A stretch of DNA of 23,726 nt from a virus, in the IMG/VR virus record IMGVR_UViG_3300010413_000171, positions 1-23,726 of that record; one strand, given 5' to 3'. Both the position numbers and the translations under genes were made by a program. The notes under the pieces were generated by a model, which was not told where the DNA came from, ran no database searches, and worked only from the letters and a program-made list of their open reading frames with translations. Shown one piece after another: positions 1,486-10,109 of the stretch (its first letter is position 1; each line of letters starts with the position of its first letter).

Positions 1486-1896
1486 ATGAATAAGATAGTA
1501 AATGTAGTATGTGGTATTGTTATATTAGGCATAATAGCAGGATGTTCAACTGATGCACAGATAGCATCACGTAACCTGTCACTCAAGGCAGATAGCTTCC
1601 AGATTATGCGACGAATAGTATTCATTGACACATGGACTGATACGTATATGCTTGAGATAACTGGCCTATGTTCAATAAAGAGTGCCGGAGCAACTACAGG
1701 AGTTGATGGTGTAGCTGTTACTTGCAAGGTAGGGGAGAATGAGTTCAAGAAACATTACCTTGGAATGAGTGGGCAGGTAGCATATTTTTCTGAACAACTC
1801 GACCCTGCTAAAGTTGGCACATACCAGTATAAGGTTATATTCAAGCCGACCTCTATCCTGCCTGATGTAGATTTCAATACATATAACAACAACTAA
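1486..1896 (+). CDS. Phage beta-sandwich lipoprotein
   Basis: This 136-residue exported lipoprotein has a short basic N-terminus (MNK), a hydrophobic stretch to residue 18 and a lipobox ending I-A-G-C with C20 as the lipidated cysteine. The mature part matches, from memory, a small family often annotated in phages as beta-sandwich lipoprotein: a 'NLS..AD.F...RRIVFI..' block near residues 30-48, 'VTCKVG' near residue 80, 'KKHYLG' near 88, and 'V.FKPTSILPD.DF' near the end. The function is not established; a role at the cell surface during infection, such as superinfection exclusion, is possible. It has a strong AAAGGAG site, lies directly after palindrome copy 1, and overlaps the following membrane peptide (TAATG). 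Confidence 0.85.
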   Translation: MNKIVNVVCGIVILGIIAGCSTDAQIASRNLSLKADSFQIMRRIVFIDTWTDTYMLEITGLCSIKSAGATTGVDGVAVTCKVGENEFKKHYLGMSGQVAYFSEQLDPAKVGTYQYKVIFKPTSILPDVDFNTYNNN

Positions 1897-2027
1897 TGAA
1901 AACAATTTACGAAAAGATGGTTGATGTTTATACTATCAGCCATGCAATCTTCACATTAGTGGTTGCCGGATTAACTGCTCTGGCAATCTTAACAATAATC
2001 TTTTTCGCTAACTTAAATTGGAGGTAG
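1896..2027 (+). CDS. One-helix membrane peptide (43 residues)
   Basis: ATG lies in a TAATG overlap with the lipoprotein stop; the frame ends at TAG 2025-2027. The 43-residue product has a charged N-terminus (MKTIYEKMVDVY) followed by about 24 hydrophobic residues (AIFTLVVAGLTALAILTIIF) and a short NLNWR tail, which is a clear single transmembrane helix. The family is not recognised. Coupling to the lipoprotein suggests the two act together at the membrane. The AGG within its terminal codons (TGGAGGTAG, 2019-2027) also provides the ribosome binding site for the ATP-grasp gene. Confidence 0.6.
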   Translation: MKTIYEKMVDVYTISHAIFTLVVAGLTALAILTIIFFANLNWR

Positions 2028-2030
2028 CAA

Positions 2031-2891
2031 ATGTTGACAGCACAAATATTAAGAAGGAAAGGATTAGGCTTTGAATCAACCAAAATGTTGCATGATGAAT
2101 TACAAACTCATGGTATTGATTTAGGAGTAGTACACAACCATAAGGCGGTAGCAGATGCCAACATTATCTTTCGATGGGGCTGTTCCTCTACTGTCCATCA
2201 TGCTAACCCTCAGTTCATCTTCAATCCTGCAAAGGGGATGCACAGGGTAACTGATAAGCCGGGATTCCGTAAACTTTGTATTGATAATGGTGTGTCATGT
2301 CCTCAAACTTTCTTTCACAAAGACGAAGCACTTGGATGGTTTGATATACATTGGAATAAAAACTATACTCTTATTGGAAGGGAATCATATCATGCTGGCG
2401 GAAGAAATGCTGAACATATATATACTATGGAAGAATTAGAGAACAGCAAATCTGATTATTGGTCTGTTGTTATACCAAAGACAAATGAATATCGTGTATA
2501 TTGTGCATGGGGTCGTGTTGTTAGGGTTGATGAAAAGATTCCTAACGACCCAACTGCCCTGTTATGGAACCATGCACAGCAAGGCAGTAAGTTCGTTAAT
2601 ATTAAATGGGGAAGCTGGCCTTTGTATGTGGTGCGTGAAGCATTGAAAGCTCATGAACTGAGTAAGCTGGACTATGAAGGTGTTGATATTATTGCACTCG
2701 ATGGCAAGGCTTATGTGATAGAAAGTAATTCTGCTCCTTCTCTTGCCCCTTATGGTGCAAAGGTATATGGAAAAGCGTTTGCTTCTGTCATTGAATATGT
2801 GAGAGAACACTTACGTAAACCATCACACGCACCGCTGCCAAACGAGAACGCTACATGGCATGATTACATTCATCCTGCTGTAGCAAATTAA
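2031..2891 (+). CDS. ATP-grasp amide/peptide ligase
   Basis: This 286-residue protein has the C-terminal half of an ATP-grasp fold. It shows an H-A-G-G-R loop near residues 121-125, a conserved core strand pair with arginines (EYRVYCAWGRVVRVDEK, 153-169) and the magnesium-binding segment D-x-E-G-V-D-I near 214-220. The hallmark 'YVIESNSAPSL' at 228-238 supplies E231 and N233. ATP-grasp enzymes activate a carboxylate as acyl-phosphate and join it to an amine. The substrate is unknown. The GGAGG at 2019-2023 supports the ATG at 2031. The gene heads a run that includes two glutamine-synthetase-fold ligases and a glutamine amidotransferase, which suggests a shared amide-forming pathway. An unrelated ATP-grasp role, such as protein or tRNA modification, is not excluded. 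Confidence 0.85.
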   Translation: MLTAQILRRKGLGFESTKMLHDELQTHGIDLGVVHNHKAVADANIIFRWGCSSTVHHANPQFIFNPAKGMHRVTDKPGFRKLCIDNGVSCPQTFFHKDEALGWFDIHWNKNYTLIGRESYHAGGRNAEHIYTMEELENSKSDYWSVVIPKTNEYRVYCAWGRVVRVDEKIPNDPTALLWNHAQQGSKFVNIKWGSWPLYVVREALKAHELSKLDYEGVDIIALDGKAYVIESNSAPSLAPYGAKVYGKAFASVIEYVREHLRKPSHAPLPNENATWHDYIHPAVAN

Positions 2892-2902
2892 ATGTACATT
2901 TA
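2889..2902. promoter_or_regulatory. Intergenic palindrome, copy 2
   Basis: TAAATGTACATTTA is a perfect 14-bp inverted repeat that begins on the TAA stop of the ATP-grasp gene. A T-rich spacer and AAAGGAG follow before the next ATG at 2922. Arrangement and flanks match copy 1 almost base for base, although the flanking genes are unrelated, so the intergenic unit itself is conserved. Confidence 0.6.
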
Positions 2903-2921
2903 TTTTTAAAGGAGAACAAGT

Positions 2922-3881
2922 ATGACAGAACAAGAATTAAAAAAATGGTTTGAATCTATTCCGTTGGTTGACTTTCTGTTCATTGGCAGGGATGAACCCC
3001 TTGAACCGAAAGGTTCTTGTTGGTATGACCCTAATCACCAACGTGGGCTATACTCAATGGATGGATTTAACTGTTGTTTATTGTCAAGGGTATCTGCTAA
3101 ATCGTTCGAACAGCTTTATGAGTTTGCTTCATGTCGTAGCTGGACAACAGATATAATCCAAGCATATGTCAATGGACAACAAGCTCATAATTTTAATATG
3201 GAAAACATGAAACATCCATCAATGAATTATTTATTGCAAGGAATAACTGGTAATAATCGGGCCTTGCATTTGGGCCTTGTGTTTGTTACAGCAATGGAAA
3301 AATATTTTAATGTTAAGAATCCTACACAGTTATGGCGTGCAAGTGTTCCAAACAAACGAAAGAATAAACCAAATGTTGATATACTTATAGCTAAAGCAGA
3401 TCAACAGTTTGTTACCAACCCATTCCTTACTAATATGTATCAGTTGATGTGGAAATTAGCAAACACTTTTACACATAGAGAAAATTATGATTCGTTTATC
3501 AAAGATGGAAAACCCATAACTGATCTTGTTAAAATAATTGAGAAAATGAAATTTCTTGGTGTTGGTAAATACGATAACAGAAATGATAGGTTCATAGATG
3601 GACTGTACATTAGGCGAAATGTTCTCAATAAATTGGTGAAGCGAGTATTCCCAAAGACTGTTATTTGGAAAGGATACTATACAACAACAAAAGAAAAGAA
3701 TTATAGGGGGCCAATAGGAATACCTGACATACATAGTACAGCAGGGATAGGTAATCTTTGCCATTGTACTACATTTGACGAAGAGTTCAATAAGTTTCTT
3801 GAAAAGTTTTATGATACTCATTGCAAAAAGAAAAAAGCAACAAAGAAAAAAGGAGAATTATTACATGAAAGAAGATTATAA
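2922..3881 (+). CDS. Unknown protein within the amidoligase cluster (319 residues)
   Basis: The start at ATG 2922 follows AAAGGAG. The product is 319 residues, soluble and aromatic-rich, with cysteines at C33, C51, C52 and C71 and a very basic C-terminus (CKKKKATKKKGELLHERRL). I do not recognise the family and see no ATP-grasp, amidoligase or peptidase motif. Its place between the ATP-grasp and COOH-NH2 ligase genes, and its own palindrome-led intergenic unit, suggest it serves the same pathway as carrier, acceptor, scaffold or novel enzyme. The last 17 bases overlap the next gene. The poly-A tract coding for the lysine tail doubles as the neighbour's ribosome binding site. Confidence 0.8.
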   Translation: MTEQELKKWFESIPLVDFLFIGRDEPLEPKGSCWYDPNHQRGLYSMDGFNCCLLSRVSAKSFEQLYEFASCRSWTTDIIQAYVNGQQAHNFNMENMKHPSMNYLLQGITGNNRALHLGLVFVTAMEKYFNVKNPTQLWRASVPNKRKNKPNVDILIAKADQQFVTNPFLTNMYQLMWKLANTFTHRENYDSFIKDGKPITDLVKIIEKMKFLGVGKYDNRNDRFIDGLYIRRNVLNKLVKRVFPKTVIWKGYYTTTKEKNYRGPIGIPDIHSTAGIGNLCHCTTFDEEFNKFLEKFYDTHCKKKKATKKKGELLHERRL

Positions 3882-4722
3882 ATTTACAATAGGATGTGAC
3901 CCTGAATTTATCTTAACAAATAATGGAATGATATGTTCTGCTATTGGGATTGTTCCGGGTAGTAAACATAAGCCATATCAGCTTGATAATGGAGCAGGAT
4001 TGCAGACAGATAATGTGGCTGTTGAGTTTGCTTCTCCTGTATGCAGATCAGTGATAGAGTTTATTGATTCCATTAAAGTTACAATGGGATTAATACAACG
4101 CAACTTGCCAGAAGGGTATGGTCTTGTATCAAAACCATCGGCAATATTCCCTGACTCTGAACTTGATAACGACAATGCACGTGAGTTTGGTTGTTCTCCT
4201 GACTATAACTGTTGGACTGATGAAAAGAACCCAGTACCAAAAGCAACCAACTTAAACTTGCGTTCATTCGGTGGTCATGTACATATAGGCACACCAATTA
4301 TTCATGCACCAAAAGCAAAACTAATTGCTGCTCAGTTGTGTGATTTATTCATGGGTATACCAAGCCTATTGCTTGACAATACCAACGAATCTAAAGCACG
4401 TCGTGAGCTATATGGAAAAGCTGGTAGCTATAGGCCAACAAAGTATGGCATTGAATATCGTGTGCTATCTAATTTTTGGACAGCATCAGATAATCTAATA
4501 GCTTGGGTATATAATTCAGTTAATGATATTGTTGATTGTTTTATCAATGACAACTGGAATCAAATACTTAACGACTTCAGACCTTTTGAAATTGAAAGAA
4601 CAATTAATGATAACGATATAGTTAAAGCTGAATCACTATTAGATTATATAGCTTGCTTTATATCAGAAACAACACATGATGCTCTTATTAATGGAATCAC
4701 TATGGCAGCACATAGGGGGTAG
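3865..4722 (+). CDS. phiEco32-like COOH-NH2 ligase, type 2
   Basis: This 285-residue member of the glutamine-synthetase-like amidoligases matches, from memory, the Pfam family 'Phage phiEco32-like COOH-NH2 ligase-type 2' (PF14395). Visible signatures are GCDPEF at 10-15, DNVAVEFASP at 49-58 with E54 as a likely metal ligand, GGHVHIG at 136-142, RRELYGKAGSYRP at 179-191 and GIEYRVLSNFW at 195-205 with E197 and R199. Such enzymes are predicted to form an amide bond between a carboxylate and an amine using ATP. I chose ATG 3865 because AAAAGGAGA (3848-3856) lies just before it and family similarity starts at residue 6. An upstream ATG at 3775 would add an unlikely Lys-rich leader inside the previous gene. 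Confidence 0.9.
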   Translation: MKEDYKFTIGCDPEFILTNNGMICSAIGIVPGSKHKPYQLDNGAGLQTDNVAVEFASPVCRSVIEFIDSIKVTMGLIQRNLPEGYGLVSKPSAIFPDSELDNDNAREFGCSPDYNCWTDEKNPVPKATNLNLRSFGGHVHIGTPIIHAPKAKLIAAQLCDLFMGIPSLLLDNTNESKARRELYGKAGSYRPTKYGIEYRVLSNFWTASDNLIAWVYNSVNDIVDCFINDNWNQILNDFRPFEIERTINDNDIVKAESLLDYIACFISETTHDALINGITMAAHRG

Positions 4723-4725
4723 CCA

Positions 4726-6405
4726 ATGCCAAGAAAAAGAGAAAACTGTATTCGTTGTGGTAAAGTTGTCACACTAAATATAACTAGACTTGATGATGGT
4801 CATGTTTATTGTTTAAATTGCAGGAGAGAAATAGGAGCATTCAAATGTCCTCATTGTCATGAACATAAAAGAGGGAACCAACTTTTTGTTGATACTGATG
4901 ATTATTATTATAACATCAGAGACGAAAAGTTCATGGCTAGATTCTTTAAATATATTAAAAGAGGATCATGTTATGAATGTGCTACTCAATACATATATGA
5001 ATATAAAGACAATGCAAAACAATGCCCTAACTGTCGTTGTTATCATACAGAACACAATCAATACTGTGCTGAATGTGAAGCCAACTTAAAACCATGCATA
5101 TCATGTAAAACAGAAACTCATAAACGGCATCAAGTTGATGGTGTCATGGTTAATTTGTGTGATGATTGTGTAATATCAAAAGAATTAATCAAATGTTCAT
5201 GTTGTGGAAACTATACTAAACATACAAATGAATCATCATTACCAGAATACACAACTATATTATGTACAAAATGTCAAGATCGTTACCCTATCATGTGTCC
5301 TATGTGTCATAAGCCAAATAATCAGGAAGCAATGACTGATGTTATGGGACAAGAAATGTGTTATGAATGTTCTGACAATTTATCTAGGTGTAAGTTGTGT
5401 AATAAATTTGATGTATTAAATACTGTTAGAACAAAAGATGGGAAACTTGTATGGGTTTGTGAAGAGTGTGCAAGAACACATAATAAAGGAATCATGCAAC
5501 CCTGGAACTACAAACCCGGAAAACTAAAATATCATGGAAGAGATTACAGTAACCCTTTCTTGTTCTTTGGATTTGAAAATGAAACTTATATCAGGAGTAG
5601 ATTAGAACGAATTAAAACAAAACACATGGGAAAGATACTCCACTATTTCCCTATTGATTTGTTATATTCTAAATTTGATGGTTCAATAGGAGGTAATACA
5701 GATGTACTCGGTGGAGAACATGGTGCTCATGGGTTTGAACTTGTTTCACATCCAATGACGTTTGAATATTTTAAACAGTTTCCTAATTGGAAAAAAATGT
5801 TTACAATCCAAACAATTAAGCATGATACTTGTGGTATGCACATACATATAACAAGGGCAGCGTTTACTCCCTTACACTTATACAAGTTCATATCATTAGT
5901 TCATGCTAACGATTCATTTATTGAATACATTGCCGAGCGTTCGCTCAAGGGCAATAAGTACACTACCAATATTTCGGGAGAAAATATAGCTAAAGATTGC
6001 ATTAAATATAAGAAGGGCAAAGGAGGTCGTGAACAGATTTATCGTAGAGCAAAAGTAAATCTGTGTAATGACTTCACTATTGAGCTACGATTCTTCTCGA
6101 ATGTCACGAAAGTTGAGCAGCTTCATAAGAACATGGAGTTTGCTCACGCTCTATTCTCTTATTCAAGAGAACTTCCACAGAGTTATGCTACCGACATTGA
6201 TATGTTCATAGATTATATTAAAGAACATAGAAAGTTATATCCAGAACTTAATACATTTCTTGAGTGTATGCCTTGGGAAAGAAAAGAGAATACACTTGAG
6301 GACGATATTGCCAATAAAGAAGAAAGAAACAATATAGAAGAATATATTCCACATACTAATAATGGTATTGATTGGAACTTTGAATGGGTAACAGCAGAAG
6401 ACTAA
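4726..6405 (+). CDS. Seven-zinc-ribbon amidoligase (Amidoligase_2-like)
   Basis: This is a 559-residue two-part protein. Residues 1-250 hold fourteen CxxC pairs: 8/11, 29/32, 41/44, 82/85, 100/103, 114/117, 124/127, 145/148, 157/160, 180/183, 191/194, 212/215, 222/225 and 245/248. That is enough for seven four-cysteine zinc ribbons in tandem. Residues 278-460 carry amidoligase motifs: FGFENE (281-286), KFDGSIG (316-322), GFELVS (336-341), CGMHIHI (369-375) and IELRFF (452-457), as in the Amidoligase_2 family (PF12224). The tail after 510 is acidic. The predicted reaction is ATP-dependent amide ligation; the ribbons probably dock a partner, substrate or nucleic acid. The start is ATG 4726, four bases after the previous stop, with GGGGG upstream as a weak site. 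Confidence 0.85.
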   Translation: MPRKRENCIRCGKVVTLNITRLDDGHVYCLNCRREIGAFKCPHCHEHKRGNQLFVDTDDYYYNIRDEKFMARFFKYIKRGSCYECATQYIYEYKDNAKQCPNCRCYHTEHNQYCAECEANLKPCISCKTETHKRHQVDGVMVNLCDDCVISKELIKCSCCGNYTKHTNESSLPEYTTILCTKCQDRYPIMCPMCHKPNNQEAMTDVMGQEMCYECSDNLSRCKLCNKFDVLNTVRTKDGKLVWVCEECARTHNKGIMQPWNYKPGKLKYHGRDYSNPFLFFGFENETYIRSRLERIKTKHMGKILHYFPIDLLYSKFDGSIGGNTDVLGGEHGAHGFELVSHPMTFEYFKQFPNWKKMFTIQTIKHDTCGMHIHITRAAFTPLHLYKFISLVHANDSFIEYIAERSLKGNKYTTNISGENIAKDCIKYKKGKGGREQIYRRAKVNLCNDFTIELRFFSNVTKVEQLHKNMEFAHALFSYSRELPQSYATDIDMFIDYIKEHRKLYPELNTFLECMPWERKENTLEDDIANKEERNNIEEYIPHTNNGIDWNFEWVTAED

Positions 6406-6416
6406 TTATTAAAAAT

Positions 6417-6443
6417 TAAATGTACATTTATTTTTTGTACAAA
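6417..6443. promoter_or_regulatory. Intergenic palindrome, copy 3, with a second TGTACA palindrome
   Basis: TAAATGTACATTTA (6417-6430) is followed four bases later by another inverted repeat, TTTGTACAAA (6434-6443), which shares the TGTACA core and runs into the AAAGGAG of the amidotransferase gene. Two adjacent sites with the same core resemble a tandem operator. This copy lies 12 bases beyond the upstream stop codon, so here the palindrome is not formed by the stop itself. Confidence 0.55.
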
Positions 6444-6454
6444 GGAGATTTATT

Positions 6455-7366
6455 ATGTGTATTATTATGGTTAAGCCTGAAGGCAAATTGATTCCCGATA
6501 ATTATTTTGAAAACTCTTTTGAGATGAATCCGCATGGAATTGGATATTCATATATCGTTGGTGAAGGTGATGTAGCAAAGATAATAACAAAACGCTTTAT
6601 GAAATATAATAAATTTATAAAGCAATACAGAAAGGATGAAATAAATAATCTTCATGATACTCCATTTCTTATTCACTTCAGGGCTTGTTCAAGGGGTGTT
6701 GTTAATATTGACAATACACATCCATTTAAGATCAACGACGGTCAGGTGTTTGCACATAATGGAACTATCTATGGAATACCAGAGGATGAAAATAAGAAAA
6801 GGTCAGACACAAATATGTTCAATGAAACTTGTCTTAAGGGTTTACCTATTGGATGGGAAACAAATGAATCAATTAAGAATCTTATTTACGGAACAATAGG
6901 ATTCAGTAACAATCGTCTTGTTGTTCTTAATAAAACAAAAGAATATTTTATTTTTAATGAAGGTCTTGGTGTATGGGATGATGGAGTATGGTTTTCAAAT
7001 GACCATTATCTTGGTATCTATTGCCGTTTAGCTAATGGAAAGACTATACTTAAAAGTGCATTTGTTATTCCAGATAAAGATGATTGGGACAGATGGGAAA
7101 GAGATTATGATAATTATATTCCTGGATATCGTGAACCGGGAAAGATAGGGCCAACCCAGCAAACAATCTTTGGTGTAAAAGACATTGATGGCAATAAAAA
7201 AGATAATGATATGATTGATAGTGGTGAAGGATGTGACTTTTGCGGACAATTAATGGGAAATAAAAAAGTTGATGTTGTTAATGAAGAGTTTGGAGATATG
7301 TATGAAATGTGCAACTATTGTGCACAAACCCTAACATCTTTTGGAGGGATTAAGTATGCTAACTAA
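6455..7366 (+). CDS. Class II glutamine amidotransferase (Ntn hydrolase) with C-terminal zinc ribbon
   Basis: The 303-residue product starts Met-Cys, so removal of Met exposes the catalytic cysteine typical of class II amidotransferases. It has HFRACSRG at 74-81 with R76 (glutamine binding) and NTHPF at 87-91. FAHNGTIYG at 99-107 gives the Asn-Gly oxyanion pair, and SDTN at 117-120 supplies the substrate aspartate. These enzymes release ammonia from glutamine for a partner enzyme. The GAT domain ends near residue 205. Residues 260-289 form a zinc ribbon (C260, C263, C286, C289) not usual for the family. The start follows AAAGGAG at 6441. Context implies it feeds nitrogen to, or trims products of, the neighbouring amidoligases; a stand-alone peptidase-like role is the alternative. 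Confidence 0.88.
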   Translation: MCIIMVKPEGKLIPDNYFENSFEMNPHGIGYSYIVGEGDVAKIITKRFMKYNKFIKQYRKDEINNLHDTPFLIHFRACSRGVVNIDNTHPFKINDGQVFAHNGTIYGIPEDENKKRSDTNMFNETCLKGLPIGWETNESIKNLIYGTIGFSNNRLVVLNKTKEYFIFNEGLGVWDDGVWFSNDHYLGIYCRLANGKTILKSAFVIPDKDDWDRWERDYDNYIPGYREPGKIGPTQQTIFGVKDIDGNKKDNDMIDSGEGCDFCGQLMGNKKVDVVNEEFGDMYEMCNYCAQTLTSFGGIKYAN

Positions 7367-7550
7367 TCGCTGCATTTGTTGTAATAGAATATTGACTGAG
7401 TATGAAGCATCATATGATGCAATCATTAATGATTACAATGATATGTGTGGCTATTGTCTACGCACAGCAAGAGACATTAGATATATTGAAGATGAACCAT
7501 ATCCACCAATGGAGGTAGAGGTAGATGAAACAAACGAAGACATGGAATAA
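7356..7550 (+). CDS. Stand-alone zinc-ribbon protein, likely relative of the GAT tail
   Basis: ATG 7356 follows GGAGGG (7343-7348) and overlaps the end of the amidotransferase gene by 11 bases; an in-frame TTG at 7341 is less likely. The 64-residue product has CxxC pairs C6/C9 and C31/C34 and an acidic tail (EVEVDETNEDME). Spacing and the segment before the second pair (DYNDMCGYCLRT) closely resemble the amidotransferase C-terminal ribbon (DMYEMCNYCAQT), so the two ribbons are probably duplicates. Role unknown; protein-protein docking is plausible. Confidence 0.8.
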   Translation: MLTNRCICCNRILTEYEASYDAIINDYNDMCGYCLRTARDIRYIEDEPYPPMEVEVDETNEDME

Positions 7551-8866: not shown

Positions 8867-9204
8867 GTAGAAAGACTCAAGCATGGAAGGATGGCTATAA
8901 CGCTTTTACTCCGGGTGAAAGTAAACCACTTCGGTTCTGTAAATACTATGATGAGTCTGGTGGTAAGTTGACTCTCCAAGTTGATAACTGGCTTGACGGA
9001 TGGAAGAAAGCAGAAGAACATTATATCATGGAAGAAGCAGAACTTGAAGGAAAAATTAATAAGATTGAAGAAGAAAAAAAGGAGTTTGATAATATTAAAC
9101 ACTCTTGTCCTTGGAATACAACAAATGGATATTCATGTATAGCAACTAAAGATGATTGTTTAGTAGATAAATGTGCAGTATGGTATATATTAAAGGAGAA
9201 ATAA
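8863..9204 (+). CDS. Ribosome-modulation-factor-like N-terminus fused to a Cys-rich tail
   Basis: In this 113-residue protein the first 50 residues (AWKDGYNAF.PGESKPLRFCKYY...NWLDGWKKAEEHY) follow the pattern of the RMF/CrpP-type fold, G-Y-x-A-x-x-x-G with a proline block and then W-x-x-G-W-x-x-A. RMF binds 70S ribosomes and drives them into inactive dimers, so a phage copy could alter host translation. Then come a Glu/Lys-rich coiled-coil linker (55-77) and a cysteine-bearing C-terminus (C82, C91, C98, C103). The RMF assignment rests on pattern only. ATGA overlap upstream; TAATG overlap into the RNA ligase. Confidence 0.7.
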   Translation: MSRKTQAWKDGYNAFTPGESKPLRFCKYYDESGGKLTLQVDNWLDGWKKAEEHYIMEEAELEGKINKIEEEKKEFDNIKHSCPWNTTNGYSCIATKDDCLVDKCAVWYILKEK

Positions 9205-10109
9205 TGAGCACAAAATTTCCTAAAGCGTGGGCATTGGGCCATCGTAATACACATGGTATATGGGATGGTCATGTTGAGATAACTGAGAAGGTTGATGGCT
9301 CTCAGTTTGGATTCGGAATCATAATGAATAATTTTACAGCACGGTCAAAGAACTGTGAGATACACAAGGATGCTGCTGGTATGTTTCATGAGGGGATTGA
9401 ATATGTACATAGTGCACAAGACAGACTCGACCCGAATATCTTTTACTATGCTGAATACCTGAAGAAGCCGAAGCACAACACTCTTTCATATGATAGGATA
9501 CCGAACAACCATCTTGCTTTGTTTGGAATAAAGTATCAGGATGGTACATTTGAAAAGAACTATTCAGTTCTATCAGCAACAGCAGAAGAAATTGGAATAG
9601 ATGTTGTTCCTCTAATATTCTATGGAAAAATCAACCATCCTGATGACATCAAAGAACTTCTCCAAAGAGAAAGCTATCTTGGTGGTGTGCCGATTGAAGG
9701 ACTTGTTGTGAAGAACTATGACAAGGATATGATTATTGCAGACCAGTGGGTTCCTTTCATCCAAGGTAAGTATGTGTCCGAAACATTCAAGGAGAAGCAT
9801 ATTAAAGGCTGGAAGAGTGGGCCTAATAAACTTGAAGCACTATTTCAGTCTGTTGAGAATGACAAGAACAGATGGGTAAAAGCTATCAATGCTATGCGTG
9901 ATGATGGTACACTAACTGATAGCCCAAGAGACATAGGCCCATTACTTCAGCACATAACCAATGACTTCCTTGAGGAAGAAAAGGAAGAGTTTAAAGAAGC
10001 ACTGTTCAGAATCTATGAGAAACAGTTGAAGAGGGTGATAGCACGTGGTTTCCCTGAGTGGTACAAGAATAGACTAATGGAGATTTCATTTGGTGCAAGA
10101 GATATGTAA
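9204..10109 (+). CDS. RNA ligase (Rnl2-like nucleotidyltransferase)
   Basis: This 301-residue ATP-dependent ligase has covalent nucleotidyltransferase motifs in order: motif I EKVDGS at 28-33 with K29 as the AMP-accepting lysine, ARSKN just downstream, FYYAEYL (motif III), IEGLVVKNY (motif IV) and a GKYV..TFKEKH segment (motif V). Absence of DNA-ligase OB or BRCT domains and the length favour RNA ligase. Such phage enzymes seal RNA breaks, classically host or phage tRNAs cut by anticodon nucleases. The C-terminal third is helical and acidic. I chose ATG 9204 because AAAGGAG lies at 9192; an upstream ATG at 9171 lies within the previous gene and lacks this spacing. Confidence 0.85.
   Translation: MSTKFPKAWALGHRNTHGIWDGHVEITEKVDGSQFGFGIIMNNFTARSKNCEIHKDAAGMFHEGIEYVHSAQDRLDPNIFYYAEYLKKPKHNTLSYDRIPNNHLALFGIKYQDGTFEKNYSVLSATAEEIGIDVVPLIFYGKINHPDDIKELLQRESYLGGVPIEGLVVKNYDKDMIIADQWVPFIQGKYVSETFKEKHIKGWKSGPNKLEALFQSVENDKNRWVKAINAMRDDGTLTDSPRDIGPLLQHITNDFLEEEKEEFKEALFRIYEKQLKRVIARGFPEWYKNRLMEISFGARDM

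Follow-up and report, generated by a model that had tools for sequence, protein, structure and literature searches.

Phage amide-ligase operons of the phiEco32 type were reportedly predicted by Iyer et al. in 2009, and it is from about that time that the gene set has been recognised. It is carried by hundreds of phages, among them lytic ones of E. coli and Pseudomonas. In RIO-1-like podoviruses, PA11, LUZ24, PaP3, tf and phiEco32 it was described as a "peptidoglycan modification cassette" and predicted to prevent superinfection, in a report (PMC5498523) that cites Iyer et al. and Hardies 2013 for the cassette. The same gene set was noted in UFV-P2 (PMC3890496), the amidoligase and glutamine amidotransferase (GATase) genes of OM43 phages were described in a work that repeats the peptidoglycan modification idea (PMC10580990), and a role in nitrogen metabolism was proposed for Phage-ZRK32, which has a similar set (PMC10945688). 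In the literature on the cassette we found no experiment on its product, and no proven product or target. The present work deals with such a cassette in a whole 23.7-kb virus record of IMG/VR (IMGVR_UViG_3300010413_000171), referred to here as the window. The record is that of a tailed phage, encoding a primase/helicase, exonucleases, a polymerase exonuclease subunit, an RNA ligase and a ribonucleotide reductase.

The cassette comprises a RimK-like ATP-grasp ligase, an orphan protein of 319 residues (U319), a phiEco32-like COOH-NH2 ligase type 2, a second amidoligase and a class II glutamine amidotransferase (GAT-II). We read it, with a probability of roughly 0.6, as a phage amide-ligase operon of hybrid make-up, in which the ATP-grasp and COOH-NH2 ligases would derive from the phiEco32 lineage and the zinc-ribbon amidoligase and GAT-II from that of mycobacteriophage Marvin and the OM43 phages. 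The original prediction for this DNA had placed the five genes on one strand and taken them as one pathway for amide or peptide bond formation. All five are present on the plus strand, each preceded by a Shine-Dalgarno sequence, and the general idea was already in print (PMC5498523, PMC10580990). That prediction missed that the amidoligase and GAT-II come from another lineage than the COOH-NH2 and ATP-grasp ligases, and that the amidoligase starts with a zinc-ribbon array of about 250 residues. The hybrid composition and the zinc array are new here, as are the strict tie between one accessory family, U200, and one amidoligase group, and the fusions of GAT-II to a gamma-glutamyl cyclotransferase (GGCT) domain seen in related loci.

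Mosaic origin of the cassette

IMG/VR was scanned with an alignment of the COOH-NH2 ligase, and the best 80 of 272 loci, together with named phages, formed a first survey (the COOH survey); a second one, the GAT-II survey, comprised the best 80 of 182 loci. All open reading frames (ORFs) of these loci were searched with profiles built for this analysis; the surveys cover best-scoring loci only, and many of the contigs are fragmentary. In the COOH survey, the amidoligase and GAT-II were each found in about 79-81 loci (some nine in ten) and the ATP-grasp ligase in 75, and the annotations of phiEco32, PA11, RIO-1, phage KZY1-k141_1263260 and Alcaligenes phage QDWS535 show equivalent sets. Since the four enzyme families are found together in viral loci other than the window, chance does not account for their being neighbours, and the functional coupling claimed at the outset is supported by the survey, by the named phages and by the UFV-P2 report (PMC3890496). 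In the phage collection, 312 records encode the COOH-NH2 ligase, and their hosts include many Gram-negative bacteria.

The amidoligase domains fall into three groups in a quick tree that has long branches and is backed by profile scores: A (the phiEco32 and PA11 type), B (a Leptolyngbya phage and large phages) and C (Marvin, the OM43 phages, a faecal phage, others and the window). When profiles of these groups were built without the window sequences, the window amidoligase scored 187 bits against group C, 14.6 against group A and not at all against group B, and its GAT-II 194 bits against group C, 33 against group A and 38 against group B, scores to be read with the fact that the group C sets lean towards the window, because they were partly collected with it as bait. 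The COOH-NH2 ligase, for its part, reached 268 bits with group A and 244 with group B, and the ATP-grasp ligase 80 bits with A, 35 with B and 48 with the few found beside group C. A tblastn search against named phages, free of that bait selection, agrees with the profiles: the amidoligase and GAT-II led to Marvin and MEP401/402, and the ATP-grasp ligase to PA11, RIO-1 and CVT22.

As in phiEco32, RIO-1, PA11 and LUZ24, the ATP-grasp ligase, the PF14395 ligase, the Amidoligase_2 protein and GAT-II of the window lie together upstream of a primase/helicase. The window differs from those phages in that the amidoligase and GAT-II belong to group C and not to A, in its gene order (the ATP-grasp gene comes first), in having the zinc-ribbon array and U319, and in lacking U200 and, within the fragment, GGCT and C26 genes. 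With Marvin (gp105-106) and the OM43 phages MEP401 and MEP402 it shares the groups, order and adjacency of the amidoligase and GAT-II, as well as CxxC motifs ahead of the amidoligase domain, a trait of part of that family. In contrast to pairs of this type, it also has an ATP-grasp ligase, mostly absent elsewhere, and a COOH-NH2 ligase, for which none of the 50 other group C pair records gave a match when searched whole, in a search that does find the window when its own ligase is the query. Conversely, the group C profile gave weak matches in 50 records with the COOH-NH2 ligase, at most one per record (17-64 bits), consistent with the cassette's own amidoligase. The window is thus a hybrid, with phiEco32-type ATP-grasp and COOH-NH2 ligases beside a group C amidoligase and GAT-II as in none of those 50 others, and in this sample it is the sole locus that joins both halves.

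The group C amidoligase and GAT-II genes adjoin in most of 83 loci, usually no more than ~110 bp apart, which indicates that their products act as a pair. That pair is normally found without a COOH-NH2 ligase, and an ATP-grasp gene lies near it in just 7 of 89 loci, the window counted. Together with the different origin of the two halves, as told by the profile scores, this would fit two independent modules placed side by side, one an amidation pair of amidoligase and GAT-II that stands by itself, the other a pathway made up of ATP-grasp ligase, U319 and COOH-NH2 ligase. We hold this to be unlikely: the four homologous enzymes occur together in most group A and many group B cassettes, so that the pathway appears to call for the amidoligase/GAT-II pair, and the window genes are closely packed in one run. 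Rather unlikely, too, is a stronger form of the hybrid reading, according to which the group C pair and U319 replace the group A amidoligase, GAT-II and U200, so that two free-standing modules would form a new joint pathway with a substrate of its own and a product that neither parent makes.

Enzymes, zinc ribbons and accessory proteins

Profile matches and, for the amidoligase, a structural model support the folds named in the original prediction, so that, as judged from the sequences, the four enzyme assignments are confirmed; each of the four enzymes retains its catalytic residues. The ATP-grasp ligase matches phrog_2599 (E=1e-12), and its family profile finds RimK-type alpha-L-glutamate ligases in PDB (6e-10). 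It keeps ExR (E153, R155), D219 and ExN (E231, N233). The R2K_2 and R2K_3 models of Pfam gave E values of only 0.02-0.12, and RimK and ATPgrasp_ST scored better. With RimK, LysX and cyanophycin synthetase it shares the fold family and the ExR/ExN motifs, in a distant, profile-level likeness. The COOH-NH2 ligase is matched by phrog_3815 (E=7e-63) and, above the cut-off, by PF14395 (8e-10), with DxE, HxH, R180 and YG.E.R invariant; the ATG at 3865, with GGAG upstream, is favoured as its start over the TTG at 3775 that opens the longest ORF, both ending at 4722. GAT-II scores 21.8 bits with PF13230, slightly under the cut-off of 23, and its family profile matches the GlmS and PurF structures (7e-10); its invariant Cys2, R76 and H101-N102-G103 represent the N-terminal catalytic Cys, the Arg and the Asn-Gly motif.

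Table. Features of the cassette and of its immediate surroundings in the window.
Feature	Length (residues)	Positions	Strand	Remarks
RimK-like ATP-grasp ligase	286	2031..2891	+	Shine-Dalgarno GGAGG
Orphan U319	319	2922..3881	+	Shine-Dalgarno AAGGAG
phiEco32-like COOH-NH2 ligase type 2		3865..4722	+	start assigned from Shine-Dalgarno
Second amidoligase (Amidoligase_2, group C)	559	4726..6405	+	N-terminal array of 14 CxxC
Class II glutamine amidotransferase (GAT-II, group C)	303	6455..7366	+	C-terminal CxxC...CxxC knuckle
Small CxxC...CxxC zinc-finger-like protein	64	7356..7550 (ATG 7356)	+	start assigned from Shine-Dalgarno
Lipoprotein (PF25682/phrog_478)		1486..1896	+	lipobox IAGC; directly upstream of the 43-residue peptide ORF
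Single-pass membrane peptide	43	1896..2027	+	between lipoprotein and ATP-grasp genes

The amidoligase matches phrog_16683 (2.5e-11) and phrog_2443 (E~2e-10); with PF12224 it reaches 20.9 bits, slightly under the cut-off of 22, a family that 31 of the 45 members of its alignment do match (best 4e-22). In an AlphaFold2 model, the catalytic domain (residues ~280-520) is mostly above a pLDDT of 85, and the top Foldseek matches in PDB all belong to the glutamine synthetase superfamily, whose fold the protein is predicted to have. Glutamine synthetase, YbdK and GmaS (gamma-glutamylmethylamide synthetase) come best, followed by Dop, PafA and glutamate-cysteine ligase, with low TM-scores (0.2-0.37), due at least in part to the poorly modelled, zinc-rich N-terminal half. 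The catalytic residues E284/E286, D318-S320, H372, E453 and R455 are conserved. With YbdK, GmaS, glutamine synthetase and PafA/Dop the window amidoligase thus has a predicted fold in common at an identity of about 10%, and it differs from them in being paired with a separate GAT-II.

Its first ~250 residues contain 30 cysteines and 14 CxxC motifs (residues 8-248), the highest CxxC number in the group C set. In that set, 35 of the 86 amidoligases have at least one CxxC and 33 have at least two before the amidoligase domain (window counted), whereas none of the 67 group A amidoligases has a CxxC ahead of the catalytic DGS motif. Besides the array, a zinc knuckle ends GAT-II and another makes up the 64-residue protein that follows. 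Most likely, the zinc ribbons hold the substrate or dock partner enzymes. A variant was seen in locus L152 (8757-15114), where the amidoligase/GAT-II pair is tandemly duplicated and the first amidoligase copy has eight CxxC motifs.

U200 was detected in 66 loci of the COOH survey and follows the amidoligase group strictly: it accompanies 66 of 67 group A amidoligases and none of the 11 of group B or the six of group C. This grouping makes the question of the cassette's function more tractable, with the amidoligase and GAT-II as the shared unit and U200 as a group A accessory. The family (phrog_4877/11055; e.g., L042 10546-11238, L004 7862-8479 and 64 other loci) is of about 200 residues, has a conserved R..RQ...G motif and corresponds to no Pfam family; in the phiEco32-type cassettes its gene is placed between those of the COOH-NH2 ligase and the amidoligase. 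A six-frame search of the window gave no match to it (best E 2.4), and a comparison of U319 with the U200 profile by hhalign returned a probability of 0.5%. For U319 itself, searches of Pfam, PHROGs, PDB, phages (tblastn), the viral_contigs and genome_contigs collections and the 176 loci (phmmer) gave no relative, and its single-sequence AlphaFold2 model is uninformative (pLDDT 34). It is not a chance ORF, since a random frame of 319 codons at its GC content stays open with P~3e-11.

Possible chemistry and target

GGCT splits off gamma-glutamyl groups in the form of 5-oxoproline, and gamma-glutamyl bonds are cut by C26 enzymes. In the COOH survey, C26-type gamma-glutamyl hydrolase/GATase genes were found in 57 loci and GGCT in 48; one or the other accompanies most group A and B cassettes. 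Ten group C loci encode a fusion of GAT-II with GGCT (PF06094 up to 6e-22) and a zinc knuckle. The window fragment, which starts just 2 kb upstream of the cassette, contains neither. Because these partners act on gamma-glutamyl bonds, a gamma-glutamyl compound is the substrate or product that would most simply be common to all. The window, as a natural hybrid, and the GAT-II-GGCT fusions reveal which parts of the system are exchangeable. GAT-II fused to GGCT and a C-terminal zinc knuckle is seen in L153 (2867-3952), L162 (10001-11104), L170 (10001-11119), L154, L163, L168, L169, L173, L174 and L175; a group C amidoligase lies near most of the ten.

In the proposed hybrid operon, GAT-II would hydrolyse glutamine at its N-terminal Cys and pass the ammonia to the adjacent amidoligase, as their constant pairing suggests, and the amidoligase would activate a carboxylate with ATP and convert it to a carboxamide. 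The COOH-NH2 ligase may form a gamma-glutamyl-type bond, to which its family and the GGCT/C26 partners point, and the RimK-like ATP-grasp ligase may add an amino-acid or Glu peptide bond to what we infer to be the same substrate. The product, made in the infected cytoplasm, would be a short non-ribosomal gamma-glutamyl peptide or an amide-modified cell component. Successive peptide or gamma-glutamyl ligation combined with glutamine-dependent amidation is likely. This scheme names no target and partly overlaps the explanations that do, be it peptidoglycan, a protein or nitrogen compounds. Should the envelope or a protein of the host turn out to be the target, the cassette would represent a new chemistry of phage take-over.

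That peptidoglycan or another envelope component is modified to block superinfection is the published inference (Iyer et al., Hardies et al., PMC5498523), and the presence of the cassette in phages of many Gram-negative hosts is in line with it. Neither signal peptides nor membrane anchors were seen on the four enzymes, though, and the adjoining lipoprotein is not linked to the cassette. The folds of MurT and GatD, a Mur ligase and a class I GATase, respectively, are also unrelated to those considered here. Even so, these two enzymes provide a real chemical precedent, as they are reported to amidate peptidoglycan Glu using glutamine (PMC3266927). We regard an envelope target as possible, with some reserve.

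The resemblance of the ATP-grasp ligase to RimK suggests a second target, a host or phage protein to which Glu-like or amide groups would be added in the manner of RimK or Pup ligases, the zinc ribbons serving as target adaptors. Zinc arrays do fit the binding of macromolecules, and the amidoligase fold is also near, if weakly, to that of PafA and Dop. Protein tagging nonetheless seems doubtful, given that the PafA/Dop matches are weaker than those to glutamine synthetase, YbdK and GmaS, and that the GGCT and C26 partners of the relatives act, as is generally known, on small gamma-glutamyl compounds. The matches to YbdK, GmaS and glutamate-cysteine ligase could instead speak for an auxiliary nitrogen or glutathione-like metabolism, in which nitrogen is stored or mobilised as gamma-glutamyl amides, a role of the kind proposed for Phage-ZRK32 with its similar set (PMC10945688). 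Two amidoligases, an ATP-grasp ligase and zinc arrays exceed what such a role needs, and the growth data concern the whole phage only; we find this explanation quite improbable.

Several points weigh against the hybrid operon itself. With PF12224 and the GATase family, the window proteins themselves score slightly under the curated cut-offs, and U200, which nearly all phiEco32-type cassettes have, is absent, as are GGCT and C26 from the fragment. A mosaic origin could mean two separate pathways side by side, and biochemical evidence for any member of the cassette was not found in the literature.

Neighbouring genes

The small CxxC protein that follows GAT-II is the product of a sixth gene within the span 2031-7550 of the original prediction. 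Its relatives often sit between the cassette and the primase, and the COOH survey yielded 30 loci with this family, the GAT-II survey 27; the protein is no more than a possible member of the pathway. Upstream, a lipoprotein and a membrane peptide had been offered as envelope partners. Both genes are real, the lipoprotein matching PF25682 at 2.5e-43, but as a partner of the cassette the lipoprotein was rejected: its family is present in just 3 of the 176 loci examined, the window counted, and it is probably outside the system. PHROGs names phrog_478 (window 1486-1896) "recombination directionality factor", yet the protein has a clear lipoprotein signal, and the name may mislead. In L084 (4162-10087), whose cassette has a second ATP-grasp gene, another member of this lipoprotein family lies right after the first of the two.

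Archaeosine-type bases are made with the help of a class II GATase domain. DNA hypermodification was nevertheless rejected as the purpose of the cassette, no base-modification gene being found among the window proteins examined. A megablast search of the window against phages gave no match, and a scan for promoters and terminators did no better than with shuffled sequences. At 590-1456 lies a gene for a 288-residue protein that, in contrast to its neighbours, has no obvious Shine-Dalgarno sequence, and for which searches of Pfam, PHROGs, the fetched loci and patterns in IMG/VR gave no relative. Downstream, at 9171-10109, a protein of an RNA ligase family (phrog_548, 5e-19) is encoded in the same direction of transcription as the cassette.

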